Positions 55,124-62,856 are shown, counted from the first letter of the stretch. The stretch: DNA of 64,000 bases from Vulcanimicrobiota bacterium (GCA_013036105.1 JAAXCX010000002.1:124001-188000), one strand, 5' to 3'. The notes: generated from the letters alone by a model not told the origin. Made by a program: numbers and translations.

Positions 55124-56155
55124 TTAAGCCTCCACCCGGCGCCATTGCAGCACCGCGAGCGCCGCGTACACGACGGTGAGCAGTAAGAGCATAAGAGTCG
55201 AGAATTCGATGCTGCCGACGACGGTGTGCATTTGCAGTCCGGCGCTTTCCATCGATCCGTGAAACGAGATGTACGCGATTGGATCGATGTAGGCGAGCGG
55301 CTGGAAAATCGAGTGAATCGTGCGACCGATATCGCTGGAGCTGGTTGCGGTTGCTCCGGCAACACTTGGAATCATCAGCGCCGCCAGCCATCCCAACCCA
55401 CAGACCAGCCCGAGGCCGCGCTTGAGGGATGCACTGAACGCCGTCAGGCACGCATACCAGGCGAGCGGCGCTAGCACCGCGAGCCCGATCACCCAAGGAG
55501 TGAGCGCATTGGCGTAGAGATGCGGCCGGACGAACATCAAGACAACGATGAGCGTGAGCGCAAACATCGCAAGCTGAGAAACGACGATCGTTACCATGTC
55601 CACCGCGATTGAGGCGATGGCCAAACGCTCGCGCGAAACCGGCTTGGTCCACGCAAGCTCCAAATGGCCGTCGTTTTCCTTGGCGAGCACGCCGCCGAGC
55701 ATCGTTGCCGTCACCAGCCCGATGATACACGAAATGGCGAACAAGATACCGATGCCGATATTTGCCGACATGTCGCGCACCACGCGAATGTGCGCAACGC
55801 CGGAGCGTTGGTTTTGATCGATACTGGAATACCCCATCGAGAAATTATTGTGGCTTGGCGCCTCACCAATCGGCATGGTCGCATCCATATGAAAAACTGC
55901 TCCGCGCCGCTCGACGATCGCGTGCACGTGTTTGAACTTGTCGTCGATGACGGTCTCGACCGTTCCGTCGGGGAGCGTCTTCGTGGTCACGTGCGCGGTC
56001 GGCGAGCCTTGCAGCGCGGTCGCAACACTCTCGGGATTGTGTTCGCTGAGCGCCCACAGCCGCATGACAATTGCCAGCGCCAAGAACACGCCTAAAATGA
56101 TGGCAACGACGCGCAGCGCGCGCATTCCGCGCAGCACTTCCGAATAGTAGTACAT
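55124..56155 (-). CDS. ABC-2 type transporter permease
   Basis: The 343-residue membrane protein has an N-terminal helix VAIILGVFLALAIVMRLWAL, a roughly 110-residue extracytoplasmic domain (with IDDKFKHVHAIVERRGAVFHMD-like beta strands), then about five helices including IGILFAISCIIGLVTATMLGG and LAPLAWYACLTAFSAS. ENDGHLELAWTKPVSRERL after the second helix is the ABC-2 permease coupling region. It forms an exporter with the adjacent ATPase. ATG 56155 overlaps the ATPase stop by one base. The substrate is unknown; the flanking small peptides are candidates. Confidence 0.85.
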   Translation of the reverse strand: MYYYSEVLRGMRALRVVAIILGVFLALAIVMRLWALSEHNPESVATALQGSPTAHVTTKTLPDGTVETVIDDKFKHVHAIVERRGAVFHMDATMPIGEAPSHNNFSMGYSSIDQNQRSGVAHIRVVRDMSANIGIGILFAISCIIGLVTATMLGGVLAKENDGHLELAWTKPVSRERLAIASIAVDMVTIVVSQLAMFALTLIVVLMFVRPHLYANALTPWVIGLAVLAPLAWYACLTAFSASLKRGLGLVCGLGWLAALMIPSVAGATATSSSDIGRTIHSIFQPLAYIDPIAYISFHGSMESAGLQMHTVVGSIEFSTLMLLLLTVVYAALAVLQWRRVEA

Positions 56156-57060
56156 CAGCGAGCCTCCACGACATCTGCAGTCTGCGAACCGGGCGAGACG
56201 GCATTGAGAAAAATATCTTCCAAGTTCAAGTCAACGATCCGCACGCTCTGTGCGCCCATACTCGAAAGCGCCTCCGCCAGACCGCCGCCGTCGGCGGTGA
56301 CCGTCAGCCGAAGAATGCGGCCGGATTGATCGAGCCGCTCGATGCGTGCGTCGCGGCGCAAGCCGTCCAGCGCGATCGTCTCGGAAGGGAAGATTCCTTC
56401 GACGATCTTGCGATCGGATTTCAAATCGTCCACGGCGCCGGACAGAATCACGCGTCCATTTTGCAGGACGGCGAGATGATCCGCCGCGCGTTCGACCTGA
56501 CCGATTTGATGGGACGAGAGCACGATGGTCGCGCCTTGTGCGGCGCTTTCAATAATAAGGTTGAGAACCGCGCGCTGATTGACCGGATCGAGACCACTGG
56601 TCGGCTCGTCCAGCACGAGCGTTTCCGGATTGATCGCGAACGCCATCACGATCGCGAGCGCCGTACGCATGCCTTTGGACATCGCGCGCACGCGTTTGCG
56701 CGGATCCAACTTGAACAGATCCATCAGCTGTGTTGCCCGTTTGGAATCGTAACGCTTGAACGTGCGCCGCTGCATTTCCAGATGCTCGGCCCCGTTCATC
56801 CATTCATAGAGAACGCTGCGTTCGGGCACGTACGAGATGCTTTCGAAAAGCGCCGGGGTTAACTCGTTGCCGTCAAAGCGGACCACGCCCGAACTCGTGC
56901 GCGCCAGCCCCAGCAGGCATTTGAACGTCGTCGTCTTGCCGGCCCCGTTGGGTCCGAGCAGGCCGAAGACGGAACCGGTCGGGATCTCGATGGTTACGTC
57001 GTCGACGGCCAGAAATTTTCCGTACGACTTGCTCAAATGTTCGATGGAAATGGTGCTCAT
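56155..57060 (-). CDS. ABC transporter ATP-binding protein
   Basis: The 301-residue ATPase has Walker A GLLGPNGAGKTTTFKCL, the Q-loop region SYVPERSVLYEWM, signature MSKGMRTALAIVMAF, Walker B ETLVLDEPTSGLDPV and H-loop LSSHQIGQVE. The C-terminal 80 residues form the small regulatory domain of ABC-2/NatA-like exporters. ATG 57058-57060 overlaps the GntR stop as ATGA with GGAGG 5 bases upstream; an in-frame start 18 bases earlier is rejected. It is regulated with its operon by the GntR protein. Confidence 0.94.
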   Translation of the reverse strand: MSTISIEHLSKSYGKFLAVDDVTIEIPTGSVFGLLGPNGAGKTTTFKCLLGLARTSSGVVRFDGNELTPALFESISYVPERSVLYEWMNGAEHLEMQRRTFKRYDSKRATQLMDLFKLDPRKRVRAMSKGMRTALAIVMAFAINPETLVLDEPTSGLDPVNQRAVLNLIIESAAQGATIVLSSHQIGQVERAADHLAVLQNGRVILSGAVDDLKSDRKIVEGIFPSETIALDGLRRDARIERLDQSGRILRLTVTADGGGLAEALSSMGAQSVRIVDLNLEDIFLNAVSPGSQTADVVEAR

Positions 57061-57452
57061 TTTTCCTCCGGAAACCACCGCGTCAGTGCGGACTCAAAGA
57101 GTTCGCGCACGCCGGCGGCGGGTAAACCTAACGATTTTGCTTCACGGACCGCTTGTGTCACCGCTTCGCCCGCAACGTCGGTCGCGGCGCGAGTCTGTTT
57201 GGCGACTCCATCCGCCCGCACGAACGAGCCACGCCCCGGAGCCGTCTCGATAACCGCATCGTGCTCGAGGTCGCGGTACGCCCGCGCCACCGTGTTCGGA
57301 TTGACGGTCAGATCGACGGCAAGTTGTTTGACCGTAGGCAGTTGCTCGCCGGGAGCGAGGACGCCGAGGGCCACGGAGCGTTTGACTTGCTCGATGAGTT
57401 GGAGGTAGATCGGAACGCCGCTGCGCGGGTCTACCGTGAATATTGCAGGCAT
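57057..57452 (-). CDS. GntR family regulator, YtrA type
   Basis: The 131-residue repressor has a winged-helix domain at residues 8-75 (GVPIYLQLIEQVKRSVALGVL, GEQLPTVKQLAVDLTVNPNTVARAYRDLE in two parts, GRGSFV) and a short helical C-terminal dimerisation part, as in YtrA regulators of ABC transporter operons. It starts at ATG 57452 with AAGGAG 7 bases upstream. It sits between the 34-residue peptide gene and the ABC genes, and a palindrome overlaps the operon promoter, so autorepression is likely. Confidence 0.92.
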   Translation of the reverse strand: MPAIFTVDPRSGVPIYLQLIEQVKRSVALGVLAPGEQLPTVKQLAVDLTVNPNTVARAYRDLEHDAVIETAPGRGSFVRADGVAKQTRAATDVAGEAVTQAVREAKSLGLPAAGVRELFESALTRWFPEEK

Positions 57453-57463
57453 GGCCGGCTCCT

Positions 57464-57568
57464 TTAGAGCTTCGGACCCCAGCCTAGGAACAGGCTTCCC
57501 TGGTTCGAGAGCGGGAAGCTCGGGCTGCGACGCTCGGTCGCTTCTTGGAAGTTGATGGGGAACGTCAT
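57464..57568 (-). CDS. 34-residue peptide with C-terminal FLGWGPKL
   Basis: The tiny gene opens the GntR/ABC operon. ATG 57566-57568 has AAGGAG 7 bases upstream and lies about 40 bases after the predicted transcription start. The stop is 11 bases before gntR. The product begins MTFPINFQEATERRSPSF, has a mixed polar middle, and ends QGSLFLGWGPKL. There is no signal peptide and no Cys. A second small gene in this window (62710-62856) ends FSGWGPKA although the rest differs. The shared F-x-G-W-G-P-K end, the independent ribosome binding site and the exporter context argue for a real peptide, possibly processed or exported. Confidence 0.68.
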   Translation of the reverse strand: MTFPINFQEATERRSPSFPLSNQGSLFLGWGPKL

Positions 57569-57601
57569 TTCGCTTCTCCTTAGAGTACCAATACGCTGTT
57601 G

Positions 57602-57644
57602 TACTAGTACACTAGTATAATAGCACGAAACTCCCCGTCGTCAA
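57602..57644 (-). promoter_or_regulatory. Promoter with operator palindrome for the peptide-gntR-ABC operon
   Basis: On the minus strand, TTGACG (57639-57644) and TATTAT (57617-57622) are 16 bases apart. Directly downstream of and touching the -10 box is TACTAGT-AC-ACTAGTA (57602-57617), a 7-2-7 inverted repeat of the kind bound by GntR/YtrA dimers. Confidence 0.75.
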
Positions 57645-57727
57645 CCCCCTTTGCGAAACTTTTTGGTCTCGCGGGGCACCTGTGCCAAGAGGCAGCCAAA
57701 GGGGTCGGATAGCAATTTACAGGGGCC

Positions 57728-57779
57728 TTGCCTATAAGGTGGGAGGCGTCTATTATAGTTTGGACTAGCGAAACTATAA
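57728..57779 (+). promoter_or_regulatory. Promoter and perfect operator-like dyad upstream of fic
   Basis: TTGCCT (57728-57733) and TATTAT (57751-57756) are 17 bases apart. TTATAGTTT (57753-57761) and AAACTATAA (57771-57779) form a perfect inverted repeat with a 9-base spacer, overlapping the -10 box and the probable transcription start. The Fic protein's C-terminal winged helix or another regulator could bind it. Confidence 0.7.
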
Positions 57780-57790
57780 CATTAAGGTCC

Positions 57791-58960
57791 ATGATACGAG
57801 AAAACTTTACTCCGCAGGCGCCTGGCCGCCTGGTAGATTTTACCGACGAACGGGGTAATAAGGGCGTTGCTTTTCTACCGGACCAGCTGCCTCCGAAGTT
57901 CGATGTCGGATCAAAAGCGATCCGCATAGCGCTATCTCATGCAGACCGGGCTCTGGCGCTCCTCGATGGCGTCGCCCAACATCTTCCAGACCCGCAGAGT
58001 CTCTTCCGAAGCGCACTAAATCGCGAAGCGCTGATGTCAAGCAGAATCGAAGGCACGAGGACGACGCTGGGGGATCTCGCTCTCTTCGATTTGACTCAGA
58101 GGCCGGACCATGATGCCGTTGCCGTTGCTAGTTACGTCGAGGCTTACAAGTATAGCCGCAAACGTTGCAATGACATTCCCTTTGGACTTGGACTGTTGTG
58201 TGAAATTCACAACGTCCTTATGCGAAACATCGAGCCAGAAAAAACCACTCCGGGCCGCTTGCGCGATCGCACGGTGCTTATCGGAATGCCTCCGCCGTCA
58301 CAAGCGCAATTTGTTCCGCCGCCCGCAGAGTTCGTCCGTGAGCTTACTGAAGATTTGGCATCTTATCTGGAAAGCAATGATGAGCCGCCTCTGATAAGGC
58401 TCGCTGTGGCGCACTATCAGTTCGAGACCATCCATCCATTTCGCGACGGAAACGGGCGCGTTGGACGCATCATGATATCGGCGTGGCTTGAATGCCAAGA
58501 AATCCTAACGGCTCCGATGCTTTACATTAGTGCTTTCTTTCAACAACGTCAGGAAGAATACTACGACAAACTCTTAAGAGTTAGCACTCGCGGGGCATGG
58601 GAAGATTGGGTGCTTTTTTTCCTAGAGGCAGTAACCACGCAGTCTAAGGATTCTGCGGCACGAGCGAAGTTGTTGGCCGGTTTACGTACACGTTACCATG
58701 CGCTCGTGGAGAGCACCAAGGTTCGATCTCATAAGTCTCACATTCTCGTAGATGCCCTATTTGACGTGCCGGTTATGTCGGTGCCGCGTGCGAAAACTCT
58801 GACGGGTATCACGTATCCCGCCGCAAAGTCGCATGTGCAAAGGCTTATCGATCTCGGAATATTGTCGAAGGAGCCCTTTATTCACAGGGGCGTCACGTTC
58901 TACTTTGCTAACGAGCTCATTGCTGCCGCAGAGCGTCCGCTCGACGAGCAGGAGCTCTGA
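57791..58960 (+). CDS. Fic domain protein with N-terminal inhibitory helix and C-terminal winged helix
   Basis: Fic enzymes usually transfer AMP from ATP to a hydroxyl on a target protein. The active-site loop HPFRDGNGRVGR (residues 215-226) is intact. SSRIEGT (83-89) matches the (S/T)xxxE(G/N) inhibitory motif on an N-terminal helix, so it is a self-inhibited class II type. The last 80 residues (VPRAKTLTGITYPAAKSHVQ then LIDLGIL) look like a winged helix. The length of 389 matches the common Fic/DUF4172-like group. ATG 57791 has TAAGG close upstream. Codons here are visibly richer in A/T than in neighbours, suggesting horizontal transfer. No antitoxin gene is adjacent. Confidence 0.93.
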   Translation: MIRENFTPQAPGRLVDFTDERGNKGVAFLPDQLPPKFDVGSKAIRIALSHADRALALLDGVAQHLPDPQSLFRSALNREALMSSRIEGTRTTLGDLALFDLTQRPDHDAVAVASYVEAYKYSRKRCNDIPFGLGLLCEIHNVLMRNIEPEKTTPGRLRDRTVLIGMPPPSQAQFVPPPAEFVRELTEDLASYLESNDEPPLIRLAVAHYQFETIHPFRDGNGRVGRIMISAWLECQEILTAPMLYISAFFQQRQEEYYDKLLRVSTRGAWEDWVLFFLEAVTTQSKDSAARAKLLAGLRTRYHALVESTKVRSHKSHILVDALFDVPVMSVPRAKTLTGITYPAAKSHVQRLIDLGILSKEPFIHRGVTFYFANELIAAAERPLDEQEL

Positions 58961-58972
58961 CTCGAAGAGCGA

Positions 58973-60325
58973 TCAGGCCGGTAGCTTCAAGTATTTCTTG
59001 AAGCGGCGGTCGCCGCGGACCGCATCGAAACGCGGATCGACCGCCATGCGGCCGGCGTTCGGACCGGCGGACTTGAGCATCGCAAGCGCGTCGCCGCGGC
59101 GATTCAGGGCGATGAGCGCGAGGGCGACATCTCCCGAATCGGCCGACTCGGGACCCCGGCGGGCCATGGCCAGCTGCGCCGCGGCCGCGCGAACGTCGCC
59201 TCCCCGCGCATAGGCGTGGGCGAGCAGCGCCGCCGCCTCGCTGCGGCAGCCTGGGCAGATAACGGCGTACCGGCGGAATTCGCGTTCGGCGGCCCCATAA
59301 TTCCGCATTGCCTCGTAGGCAAGCCCCATGTCAACGTACGGGTCGGCTCGCTCCGGCGAGAGATCAGAGGCTTCGCGCGCGTAGGCGATTGCCTCGTTGT
59401 AACGCCGCGAAAGATAGGCGGCTTCGGAAAGCCAGGAAAGCGCCGCGGGTGAAACCGGATCGAGCTGCGCCGCTTTGCGCAGCTCGAGGAAGCCTTCGCG
59501 AGCTCTTCCCTGCTGGACGAGCGCGGAGCCGTACCACTGGTGCGCCGCGGCATAACCCGGATCGAGCGCGATCGCCGTACGGTACTGTTCGCGCGCGGCA
59601 GCCCGCGTGCCGGGCACATCTTCGGCGATCCCCATCGCGGCGTGCGCCTGGGAAAGTTGCGGATCGAGTTTGAGCGCGGTACGCGCGATCGCGCGCGCCG
59701 TCGCATACGTTCTCTTCATCGGTGCGTAGCCGTAATCGCCTTCGATCGCATAGGCTTCCCCCAGCGCTGCATATCCGCGCGCATTTTTTGGATCGGACGC
59801 GATCACCGCGCGAAAATACCGGATGCTCTTTTGTACGCTCGCTTCCGTGCGCTGCTTCCAATAATAGGTCCCCATCGCGAGGAGGCGCTGGCCGTTGGCG
59901 CTCAACTCGGAGGGCGCCGGCCGGGAACGCGCGGTGCCGTGGACGAGCGTGAAACTGAGTGAAATCGCAAGCGCCGCGGCTGCGGCAACGTATTGCCACC
60001 GCACGGCGGCGCGATGCGGGGCCGGCGACGTGGAGACCGCGCCTGTAAAAAGATAGCCGCGGCGCGGAACGGTCTCGATGCAATCGGTCCAGTGAGCGCG
60101 CAGAACTTTCCGCAGCACGTAAACGTTTTGCGCGAGGTTGCCTTCCTCAACGAACCCTTCTGGCCAAACGAAATCGAGCAGCTCGCGCTTGGCGAGCACC
60201 TGCCCCGGACGTTCGGCGAACGCGAGCAGCGTGCGCACGACTTTCGGGCCCAGCGGCAAAGGACGCTTGCCCACACTCAGGAGCAAGCGCTCGGAGTCGA
60301 GGCGGAACGGTCCAAAGTACAGCAT
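58973..60325 (-). CDS. Membrane-bound winged-helix regulator with TPR domain (CadC-like layout)
   Basis: The 450-residue protein has an OmpR/PhoB-type DNA-binding domain at residues 1-95 (FGPFRLDSERLLLSVGKRPLPLG in part; LLDFVWPEGFVEEGNLAQNV; IETVPRRGYLF). One membrane helix follows (WQYVAAAAALAISLSFTLV), then a periplasmic domain with at least six tetratricopeptide repeats. Such proteins sense periplasmic ligands or partners and regulate transcription directly from the membrane. It lies 57 bases from the divergent DUF5916 gene, its likely target. ATG 60325. Confidence 0.88.
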   Translation of the reverse strand: MLYFGPFRLDSERLLLSVGKRPLPLGPKVVRTLLAFAERPGQVLAKRELLDFVWPEGFVEEGNLAQNVYVLRKVLRAHWTDCIETVPRRGYLFTGAVSTSPAPHRAAVRWQYVAAAAALAISLSFTLVHGTARSRPAPSELSANGQRLLAMGTYYWKQRTEASVQKSIRYFRAVIASDPKNARGYAALGEAYAIEGDYGYAPMKRTYATARAIARTALKLDPQLSQAHAAMGIAEDVPGTRAAAREQYRTAIALDPGYAAAHQWYGSALVQQGRAREGFLELRKAAQLDPVSPAALSWLSEAAYLSRRYNEAIAYAREASDLSPERADPYVDMGLAYEAMRNYGAAEREFRRYAVICPGCRSEAAALLAHAYARGGDVRAAAAQLAMARRGPESADSGDVALALIALNRRGDALAMLKSAGPNAGRMAVDPRFDAVRGDRRFKKYLKLPA

Positions 60326-60382
60326 TTTGATGGCTTTCTGAAGACGGCGAAACCGGTGAAAGATTAATTTAGTAGTTGAAAT

Positions 60383-62659
60383 GTGGAGTATCCTCTGAAG
60401 TTTTCGTCATGCCTGAGCGCGAGCGCCATGCTCGCCGCCGTGCTCCTTGCCGGGTCGCCCGCCCGCGCGTCGGTCGTTGCTACGTTGCAGCTTCCGGCTG
60501 TAAAAGCGCCGGCGCCGCCGCCGCTCGATCCGTCCATTCCGGCGGCGGCGTGGACAGCCGGTGCCATTCCCGAATCGGGCGGTTTTGAGGATCTGACGAC
60601 GCGCACGATCGCACCGCACGCTACGCAAGTGTGGATGATGTATGACTCGCGCAACCTCTACGTCGCCTTTCGCGCCGAGCAGCGCGGCACGCCGATCACG
60701 GCGACGCAGGCGACCAACGACGTCGGCTTCGGCAACGACGATTTCGTGGGCGTCGAGCTCGACACGAGCGGATCCGGATCCAACGTGTACTTTTTCGAAA
60801 CGACGCCGCGCGGCGCGCGCTACGAGCAGGCGAGTGAAAATGCGCGCTACCGTCCCCTCTGGCAATCCGCCGCCGCGATAAACGGCGACTCGTGGAGCGC
60901 CGTCATGATCATTCCGCTCGACGTGCTGCGCATACGCGGCGGGGCCAACCAAACCTGGCGCATCAATTTCATTCGCAACGTCGCGGCGCCCGCGGAACAC
61001 TATACGTGGGCGTACGATGGCGTTATGCAGGACGGCCAGGTCGGCAATCAGTTCCCGCTGTTTTCCGACGCCCGTTTTTGGCCGTCGTGGACCGGCATTA
61101 CCACCGGCGCAACGGCGGCGGCGAAACCGAAGCCGCGCGCTGAACTCTACACGCTCGAAACGCTCGGCCGGGATCGTAAACTTTTTCAGCAAGCCAACGG
61201 GCAGTTTTTGCCCGAAACGGTGCGCGTTGCCGGTCTCGACGTCAGCTATCCGCTGACCAGCACGATCAACTTCGTCGGCACGGTGAACCCGGACTTTTCA
61301 AATGTGGAGATCGATCAGCAGACGATCGCGCCGCAAGAGTTCCGGCGCTTCTTGCAAGAGTATCGTCCGTTTTTCTCCCAAGGCGCCGCGTTTCTCAATC
61401 CCAATCAGGCGCCGGCGGGCGGAAATGAACTCTTTTACTCTCCGTCGGTCGGTCCGTTCGACCGCGGTGAGAAGGTAGAAGGCACGTTCGGCCGCCAGGC
61501 ATTCGGCGTACTGAATTTCCGCGGCTACGATCAAACAACGGGCAATACGTTCGACGACACGGCCTTCGGTTACACGCACACGCTGCAAGACCGCACCTTT
61601 CTGTGGTGGGCCGACGGCGTGATGGCGCACCACAGCGTCTTCGGCGACGACACCTCGCTCGAAGCGGGCATCAAAGGGCGCAACCTGAAGAACGGCTTCG
61701 TATACGGCGTCAACGATGCGAGCGAGCACGGTTCGTGGGTTCCGGGCGGCGTCGCGCACAGTCTGAACGGCTTCATCGACGTGCACAAACCGAACTACGA
61801 GTGGAATCTCGACTACAGCGACATTAGTCCAAATTACAACCCCCTAGATGGCATCACCGCCAATTCGGATATTCACGGTTTCAATTTCTTTGGAGATGCC
61901 GGCGGCTCGACGAAGGCGGTAAAAAACTTCATCGTCTTCGTGAACGCCGATCGCTTCTTGGACCGCTCGGGTGCGGTGCATCAATCCGATGCCAGCATCT
62001 CTCTGAACGCTACGTTCAAGAACGCTTTTTCGATCGGCCTCGGTCCGTCGATCGACGAGTTGCGCAGTTATTCGCTCGTCGACCCGGCCGGTTTTCATAC
62101 CAACTGCAACGATCCGAATCTTCCGCGCTCGTATTTCACGGGGTTCCCGGGCTATTTCTGCGGACGAACCGACACGTTCAGCCTTGCAACGGTAGCGGTG
62201 GGCTATCGCGACGGAACCGCCACGCCGGTCGATTTCCAGACAGCCTATGGAAAGTTCGGGTTCGGTTTTGTCGGACCCAACGACAACGGGCCGGACTACA
62301 TGCACATTTATTCATTCACGACGTCGCGGCCGCTCGGGCGCATCTTCTCGTTGGGATTGGAGTACGACGGCAACTTCGAACGCGCGATGACGACCGGCGC
62401 CTTCGATTCGCAATGGCTGCGACGTATATCGCTCGGCGCGCAACTGGGGCCGTATGAAAACTTCACGATCTCGTTGCGCTCGGTCAACGGGCGCGGCGGC
62501 TTTTCGCCGCCGGGCGTCAATCTGGCGGCGGCCTATCACCACCGGTTCCGCACCGGCGATGAGCTGTTCCTCAATTTCGGAACGCCGGCGGCGGCACGCA
62601 CACTCGACCGTTTTGTGGTCAAGTATCTCTTTCGGTTCGGCGGCGACGCCGGAACGTAA
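60383..62659 (+). CDS. DUF5916-type outer-membrane protein with N-terminal carbohydrate-binding-like domain
   Basis: A signal peptide ends at about residue 29 (AGSPARA). Residues 40-220 form a CBM9-like beta-sandwich: VWMMYDSRNLYVAFRAE, DDFVGVELDTSGSGSNVYFF (in parts), WSAVMIIPLDVLRI. A long domain follows with the DUF5916 hallmark GTVNPDFSNVEIDQQTI and RPFFSQGAAFL, then a beta-barrel to the C-terminus KYLFRFGG. Probably an outer-membrane protein; substrate unknown. GTG 60383 gives 758 residues; CTG 60395, with GGAG 6 bases upstream, gives the cleaner signal peptide MKFSSCLSASAMLAAVLLAG and may be the true start. The small GWGPK peptide gene follows 50 bases later. Confidence 0.85.
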   Translation: MEYPLKFSSCLSASAMLAAVLLAGSPARASVVATLQLPAVKAPAPPPLDPSIPAAAWTAGAIPESGGFEDLTTRTIAPHATQVWMMYDSRNLYVAFRAEQRGTPITATQATNDVGFGNDDFVGVELDTSGSGSNVYFFETTPRGARYEQASENARYRPLWQSAAAINGDSWSAVMIIPLDVLRIRGGANQTWRINFIRNVAAPAEHYTWAYDGVMQDGQVGNQFPLFSDARFWPSWTGITTGATAAAKPKPRAELYTLETLGRDRKLFQQANGQFLPETVRVAGLDVSYPLTSTINFVGTVNPDFSNVEIDQQTIAPQEFRRFLQEYRPFFSQGAAFLNPNQAPAGGNELFYSPSVGPFDRGEKVEGTFGRQAFGVLNFRGYDQTTGNTFDDTAFGYTHTLQDRTFLWWADGVMAHHSVFGDDTSLEAGIKGRNLKNGFVYGVNDASEHGSWVPGGVAHSLNGFIDVHKPNYEWNLDYSDISPNYNPLDGITANSDIHGFNFFGDAGGSTKAVKNFIVFVNADRFLDRSGAVHQSDASISLNATFKNAFSIGLGPSIDELRSYSLVDPAGFHTNCNDPNLPRSYFTGFPGYFCGRTDTFSLATVAVGYRDGTATPVDFQTAYGKFGFGFVGPNDNGPDYMHIYSFTTSRPLGRIFSLGLEYDGNFERAMTTGAFDSQWLRRISLGAQLGPYENFTISLRSVNGRGGFSPPGVNLAAAYHHRFRTGDELFLNFGTPAAARTLDRFVVKYLFRFGGDAGT

Positions 62660-62709
62660 CGAAACAAATGTCATATCGCGCCGTATAACCATGCGGTAGG
62701 ATGATGATG

Positions 62710-62856
62710 ATGAAAAACAATATGAACGAGCGTGAACCGCTCAGCCAGCTTGCGTTGCCGGAGAATAACACTCCGAGTCCGACGATCTTGAGCGAACGCG
62801 TTACGACAATTCCGACACCTTCAGGCGTTTTCTCGGGCTGGGGCCCTAAAGCTTAG
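62710..62856 (+). CDS. 48-residue peptide with C-terminal FSGWGPKA
   Basis: Four consecutive ATG codons begin at 62701; the last (62710) is best spaced from the TAGG at 62697-62700 and gives 48 residues. The product begins MKNNMNEREPLSQLALPENN, is rich in Pro, Thr and Ser, and ends TPSGVFSGWGPKA. The motif F-x-G-W-G-P-K is shared with the 34-residue peptide at 57464-57568, while the N-terminal parts differ. The gene probably shares a transcript with the upstream DUF5916 gene. The last 11 bases overlap the convergent acetyltransferase gene. No signal peptide and no Cys. Function unknown. Confidence 0.66.
   Translation: MKNNMNEREPLSQLALPENNTPSPTILSERVTTIPTPSGVFSGWGPKA

Follow-up and report, generated by a model that had tools for sequence, protein, structure and literature searches.

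Two small open reading frames, encoding peptides of 34 and 48 residues that share the C-terminal motif F-x-G-W-G-P-K, belong to a real, previously undescribed micropeptide family of one bacterial class. Both lie in a stretch of 64,000 nucleotides from a Vulcanimicrobiota bacterium (GCA_013036105.1 JAAXCX010000002.1:124001-188000), referred to here as the window. The reading that we favour, with a probability of roughly 45%, is that the members would be stress-operon micropeptides with a conserved tail that works in trans, through binding to a partner in the cell common to all of them.

The two frames, called here P0001 and P0002, lie where an earlier note on this DNA had placed them, and their translations (MTFPINFQEATERRSPSFPLSNQGSLFLGWGPKL and MKNNMNEREPLSQLALPENNTPSPTILSERVTTIPTPSGVFSGWGPKA, respectively) agree with its description (Table 1). 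The plausible ribosome binding sites that it had proposed are also present, AAGGAG before P0001 and AGGA before P0002, and Shine-Dalgarno sequences were found at almost all of the member starts examined throughout the family. The AGGA of P0002 is followed by four tandem ATGs (62701-62712), and the true start could be 62701, 62704 or 62707 instead of 62710, an uncertainty of at most three residues. P0001 and P0002 are the only GWGPK sites in the 2.34-Mb genome, as well as its only confident family members in profile searches. Within the genus, the pN/pS ratio is 0.16 for P0001 and 0.28 for P0002.

Table 1. Coordinates in the window of the two peptides and of the features around them.
Feature	Position	Strand	Remarks
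ABC-2 type permease	55124..56155	-	Pfam ABC2_membrane_2, weak, below cut-off
ABC transporter ATPase	56155..57078	-	Pfam ABC_tran; from GTG 57078, internal ATG near 57060 possible
YtrA-type GntR repressor, 131 aa	57057..57452	-	Pfam GntR
P0001, 34-residue peptide	57464..57568	-	Ends FLGWGPKL; first cistron of the predicted operon; orthologue and pN/pS evidence
P0001 Shine-Dalgarno AAGGAG	57576..57581	-	7 nt 5′ of ATG
Putative GntR operator	57599..57620	-	22-bp inverted repeat TTATACTAG-TGTA-CTAGTACAA
-10-like hexamer TATTAT	57617..57622	-	16 nt from the -35-like hexamer
-35-like hexamer TTGACG	57639..57644	-	Peptide-gntR-ABC operon; TTGACA/TTGACG common upstream of orthologues
CadC-like regulator	58973..60325	-	Pfam Trans_reg_C and TPR; synteny cluster c2
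DUF5916-type predicted outer-membrane protein	60383..62659	+	Pfam DUF5916; synteny cluster c6-peptide
P0002, 48-residue peptide	62710..62856	+	Ends FSGWGPKA; orthologues in 5 other genus genomes

When FxGWGPK was written as a degenerate codon pattern (TTYNNNGGNTGGGGNCCNAAR), it matched 80 sites, spread over 57 of the 198 related genomes searched; the reversed codon pattern, used as a control in the same genomes, matched four. In all, 151 distinct members of about 35-50 residues were gathered, and profile matches occur in 90 of 138 genomes; these genomes are mostly draft MAGs, in which genes were called in a simple, ad hoc manner and start codons were predicted. Nearly all members fall in two families of the class Eremiobacteria of Ca. 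Eremiobacterota (a phylum represented in culture by Vulcanimicrobium alpinus WC8-2, 3.50 Mbp; PMC9758169), namely the window's own (f1) and another (f3), and hardly any matches occur elsewhere in the phylum. A search of 84,980 named species genomes gave 50 exact matches that also had the stop at its expected position, about 41 of them in Ca. Eremiobacterota or in MAGs with contigs matching ones already in the clade; the other nine, which are non-eremiobacterial, were rejected as members, being scattered, isolated and chance-like frames. Viral carriage was not indicated either, with 0 matches in 2.9 million viral contigs. The earlier note knew of no described family with such an end, and indeed no profile or sequence match for the peptides was found in Pfam, NCBIfam or the PDB, nor was the string GWGPK found in the searchable literature.

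The family consensus comprises two elements, a segment R-x-T-[VIL]-x-x-P followed by the tail F-x-G-W-G-[PV]-[KR]-hydrophobic. In the 151 members the F, G, W and G of the tail are invariant by construction, as the search pattern required them, while the residues after GWG were left free in the list: the first is P in 114 members, V in 29 and I in 6, the second is K in 82, R in 51 and T in 10, and the third is L, F, I, V or A in every one of them. The stop directly follows this hydrophobic residue in 125 members, the window peptides included; the earlier description of a stop one residue past the motif thus holds for both of them and for most of the family, but the other 26 run 1-11 residues further (e.g., GWGPRLRY, GWGPRVPGL, or the form GWGPKVVGLTSTLVRWN). 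Likewise, the N-terminal parts, which had been described as dissimilar, are variable, but many members share the R-x-T-[VIL] segment some 12-14 residues N-terminal of the F; R.[TSVP][VILFM] occurs in 88 of the 151 sequences, against a mean of 37 and a maximum of 50 after shuffling. Copies of a single genome that lie beside different regulators can differ in the tail (GWGPK vs GWGVR), so that a partner, if it is shared, would have to accept either P or V there.

The peptides are hydrophilic (median GRAVY -0.53), and a hydropathy scan found no hydrophobic stretch or transmembrane segment in any of the 151 members, the highest 17-residue value being 1.35. AlphaFold2, run on 72 sequences, predicted no secondary structure (mean pLDDT 69, pTM 0.14), which is what one would expect of a disordered peptide carrying a short linear motif. 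Some members depart from the common layout: a longer one (L101:5038-5193) carries its middle segment twice (EHRVPVAI..., EHRAPISM...), as if duplicated, and in f3 genomes two different members lie about 1.2 kb apart (L110:803-937 and L110:2066-2203; L117 likewise). A predicted metallophosphoesterase ORF may be mis-called at these latter loci, since one of the two members overlaps its start.

A search by motif biases its own result, and a survey was therefore anchored on the gntR gene that lies beside the 34-mer, the sequence upstream being read at each orthologue. It yielded 83 distinct loci with an ORF ending F-x-G-W-G-x-x-x-stop, located 1-51 nt (mostly 3-20) before gntR. Since the filter on upstream ORFs continued to demand an ending of the GWG type, the core is invariant at these loci partly by design; that it turns up at almost all orthologues was not imposed in this way. 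The loci without a peptide are the six of genus g25, L241, L317 and weaker paralogues, while at L221 the region is cut by the contig end and at L305 about 120 nt separate the upstream ORF from gntR. In a one-contig genome (G014, L314) the peptide ends FRGWGVSI, 1 nt 5′ of gntR. Across the tails of the 83 loci the third codon position varies freely (F is TTC/TTT; G is GGC/GGT/GGG/GGA; P is CCG/CCC/CCT/CCA; the last residue is L/F/I/V/A), which denotes a constraint at the protein level.

The pattern and reversed counts, the gntR-anchored loci and the codon constraint rule out a chance origin of the two shared tails. The judgement of the earlier note that chance was unlikely is thus upheld, with the matches concentrated in one class, and the two approaches that it had suggested gave positive answers: related genomes contain many small ORFs with conserved ends, variable starts and Shine-Dalgarno sequences, and synonymous-site analysis (the pN/pS ratios and the free third positions) reveals coding constraint.

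As judged from its layout, P0001 is the first cistron of an operon with putative autoregulation, followed by genes for a GntR repressor, an ABC ATPase and an ABC-2 permease. The gntR gene starts 11 nt after P0001, and its Shine-Dalgarno sequence overlaps the stop of the peptide (TAAAGGAG). The regulator matches the NCBIfam PmtR model at E 9.5e-18 (64.4 bits, below the cut-off of 200), and the ATPase matches the DrrA, lantibiotic-protection and PmtA models, all below cut-off (127.9 vs 350 bits for PmtA). The putative operator (TTATACTAGTGTACTAGTACAA) occurs as one site per genome in six of the seven genus genomes, i.e., that of the window and five of the other six, and GTACTA is present in 72 of the 83 upstream regions. 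Control of P0002 by the same GntR protein was considered and is unsupported, because there is a single operator per genome.

P0002 lies 50 nt downstream of the DUF5916 gene, on the same strand, and the gene that comes after it is convergent, therefore nothing follows it in cis. Divergent from the DUF5916 gene, and between both peptides, is the CadC-like regulator, with a winged helix, an apparent TM segment and a TPR domain. Outside the genus, the DUF5916-linked members carry a C-terminal extension. The DNA that separates the peptide-GntR operon from the TPR regulator holds a Fic/DOC-family gene (57728-58960, plus strand). The comparison of syntenic relatives gave no cluster for this gene, so it may have been inserted in the window's genome.

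Elsewhere in the class, members are found in several other contexts. They lie 5′ of BlaI-BlaR1 (L378; also L387 and L398, by similar layout), of PadR-MacB (L097; L081 is similar by clustering), of Toastrack DUF4097 genes (L122; L087 and L091 by clustering), of genes for HAAS-like proteins (L379, L393) and of an ECF sigma factor (L113). Others are divergent from ABATE/CGNR stress regulators (L377, L383, and others by similar layout), and one (L366) lies 3′ of M56/pentapeptide genes. An envelope-stress partnership has been described for Toastrack, HAAS-PadR, MacB/FtsX and pentapeptide modules (PMC11237479). For about 45 of the 60 non-GntR members, among them P0002, no gene lies on the same strand within 60 nt downstream, a count from which about four GntR loci missed by the classifier were removed and which rests on ad hoc gene calls.

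Peptides placed under stress regulators that are not otherwise related carry an invariant tail, which suggests that they have a target in common. According to the reading that we favour, each peptide would be produced once its local stress regulator is switched on: P0001 would be expressed when the YtrA-type GntR repressor leaves its single operator, and P0002 together with the DUF5916 barrel protein, beside the CadC-like TPR regulator. The N-terminal part would be unstructured and free to drift, whereas the functional part would consist of the C-terminal eight residues and of the segment R-x-T-[VIL]-x-x-P located some 12-14 residues before them, and the tail would dock in trans onto one shared partner, probably related to the envelope. 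A common receptor or partner, which the earlier note had listed among its options, is thus the best reading of the shared tail, as a candidate only; no partner gene was found. In genus g25, gntR is kept at six loci (L277, L278, L279, L285, L289, L290) that lack an upstream peptide ORF, and profile searches of those genomes recovered no member at all; such a loss of all members with gntR retained would fit the loss of a shared partner, in this one genus. A broader version, which we regard as rather doubtful, would be a class-wide short-linear-motif system, in which each of the unrelated stress regulons found in Eremiobacteria would produce its own micropeptide bearing the same C-terminal address, to be read by one dedicated receptor. 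If true, different stresses would converge on a single target via peptides and not via a shared transcription factor. The family is conserved, present in multiple copies and absent from the curated libraries searched, and a shared target could perhaps reveal a new way of joining stress responses.

For P0001 itself, the strongest rival is that the peptide is a signal or an antimicrobial, exported by the adjacent ABC transporter, perhaps trimmed to its tail, and sensed or active outside the cell; it may also induce its own exporter, since YtrA-type repressors bind such peptides. The peptide-GntR-ABC-permease layout speaks for this, together with the sub-threshold matches of the regulator and the ATPase to PmtR/PmtA and lantibiotic-protection models, and with the regulator that sits between P0001 and P0002, whose TPR domain is probably periplasmic. 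Furthermore, PmtR releases DNA upon binding the PSM peptides that Pmt exports (PMC5080381), and ClnR binds LL-37 with a Kd of 83 nM (PMC6117091). Nevertheless, the peptides display no hydrophobic stretch like that of a signal sequence and no predicted helix (AlphaFold2), many members adjoin no exporter, and the tail is conserved across genera, unlike that of most pheromones. Two genomes (G029 and G031, both incomplete, at 85-86%) have members and no GntR-ABC operon, and g25 has the GntR gene and no peptide, hence the common exporter that the earlier note had envisaged, and with it shared export by the GntR-linked transporter, is not indicated. Export as inducer explains P0002 and the solitary copies poorly, and for the family we consider it unlikely.

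A role in cis has to be weighed as well. Most GntR-linked copies end right before gntR, in a leader-like manner, and such a role could exist too. In its full form, which seems to us quite improbable, the members would be regulatory leader peptides, at whose conserved C-terminus the ribosome stalls and thereby controls the next gene (gntR, blaI, padR or that of the ECF sigma factor). The short distance to gntR and the overlap of the P0001 stop with its Shine-Dalgarno sequence would agree with this, and the W and G-P conserved close to the C-terminus are reminiscent of arrest peptides. Stops of the TGA type are rare (one of the 83 gntR-linked peptides), an argument weakened by the fact that TAA is favoured before closely spaced genes in general; as some non-GntR members use TGA, its avoidance was set aside as a weak sign of termination arrest. 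RNA attenuation was discarded too, no structure being found at the peptide-gntR junction (mean folding z +0.38, n=83). Moreover, some members run 11 residues past the usual end, Pro is replaced by Val or Ile in others, and g25 keeps gntR without the peptide. A purely cis-acting leader cannot explain a family in which about three quarters of the non-GntR members lack a close downstream gene. Modification was the other idea of the earlier note, which had recognised a variable leader with a fixed C-terminal core; the family so defined is real and constrained, but its processing or modification is unsupported so far. Under that explanation, which we hold to be very unlikely, the members would be RiPP precursors with the C-terminal octapeptide as the core, modified by an enzyme encoded elsewhere. 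The architecture would allow it, and at L092:5053-6840 a member ending FPGWGPKL lies ahead of a 105-residue ORF and, beyond it, a YcaO cyclodehydratase gene, with a BTAD-STAND regulator-cluster gene divergent; it is the sole YcaO neighbour among the contexts examined. As a general rule, however, a YcaO-modified product is ruled out by the absence of YcaO from all seven genus genomes, and YcaO is lacking in most other member genomes; PqqD/RRE is above the curated cut-off in none of the seven, the test covering these two classes of enzyme. In addition, the window neighbourhood holds no modifying enzyme, and in most members the core is devoid of Cys, Ser and Thr.

The family can be placed alongside several known systems. 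Members adjoin the Toastrack (DUF4097), HAAS, PadR-MacB and pentapeptide genes of the envelope-stress modules, so the work on these covers a context of the family, and the peptides were not found mentioned in the part of it consulted (PMC11237479). Arrest and leader peptides such as TnaC, SecM and MifM (PMC10987492) likewise are short ORFs 5′ of a regulated gene with W and G-P conserved at the C-terminus, but the non-GntR members of the present family mostly lack a downstream gene, their motif is not always terminal, and no RNA structure accompanies it. The GntR-ABC operons, in turn, offer a comparison for P0001. Among the peptides to which such regulators respond, PSMs and LL-37 form amphipathic helices and come from genes outside the repressor operon, whereas P0001 is hydrophilic and predicted to be unstructured. 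As may hold for the P0001 operon, a YtrA-type GntR protein autoregulates an ABC operon and responds to peptides in the PmtR/Pmt-PSM system of S. aureus (PMC5080381) and to LL-37 in the ClnR system of C. difficile (PMC6117091), although the regulator and the ATPase of the P0001 operon are well below the PmtR and PmtA equivalog cut-offs (64 vs 200 and 128 vs 350 bits). YtrG, of the B. subtilis ytrGABCDEF operon, is a small transmembrane protein (PMC12772383), unlike P0001, which has no hydrophobic stretch and whose relatives also occur away from GntR operons; in both cases, a small ORF, a YtrA-type GntR repressor and an ABC transporter share an operon, which P0001 heads.
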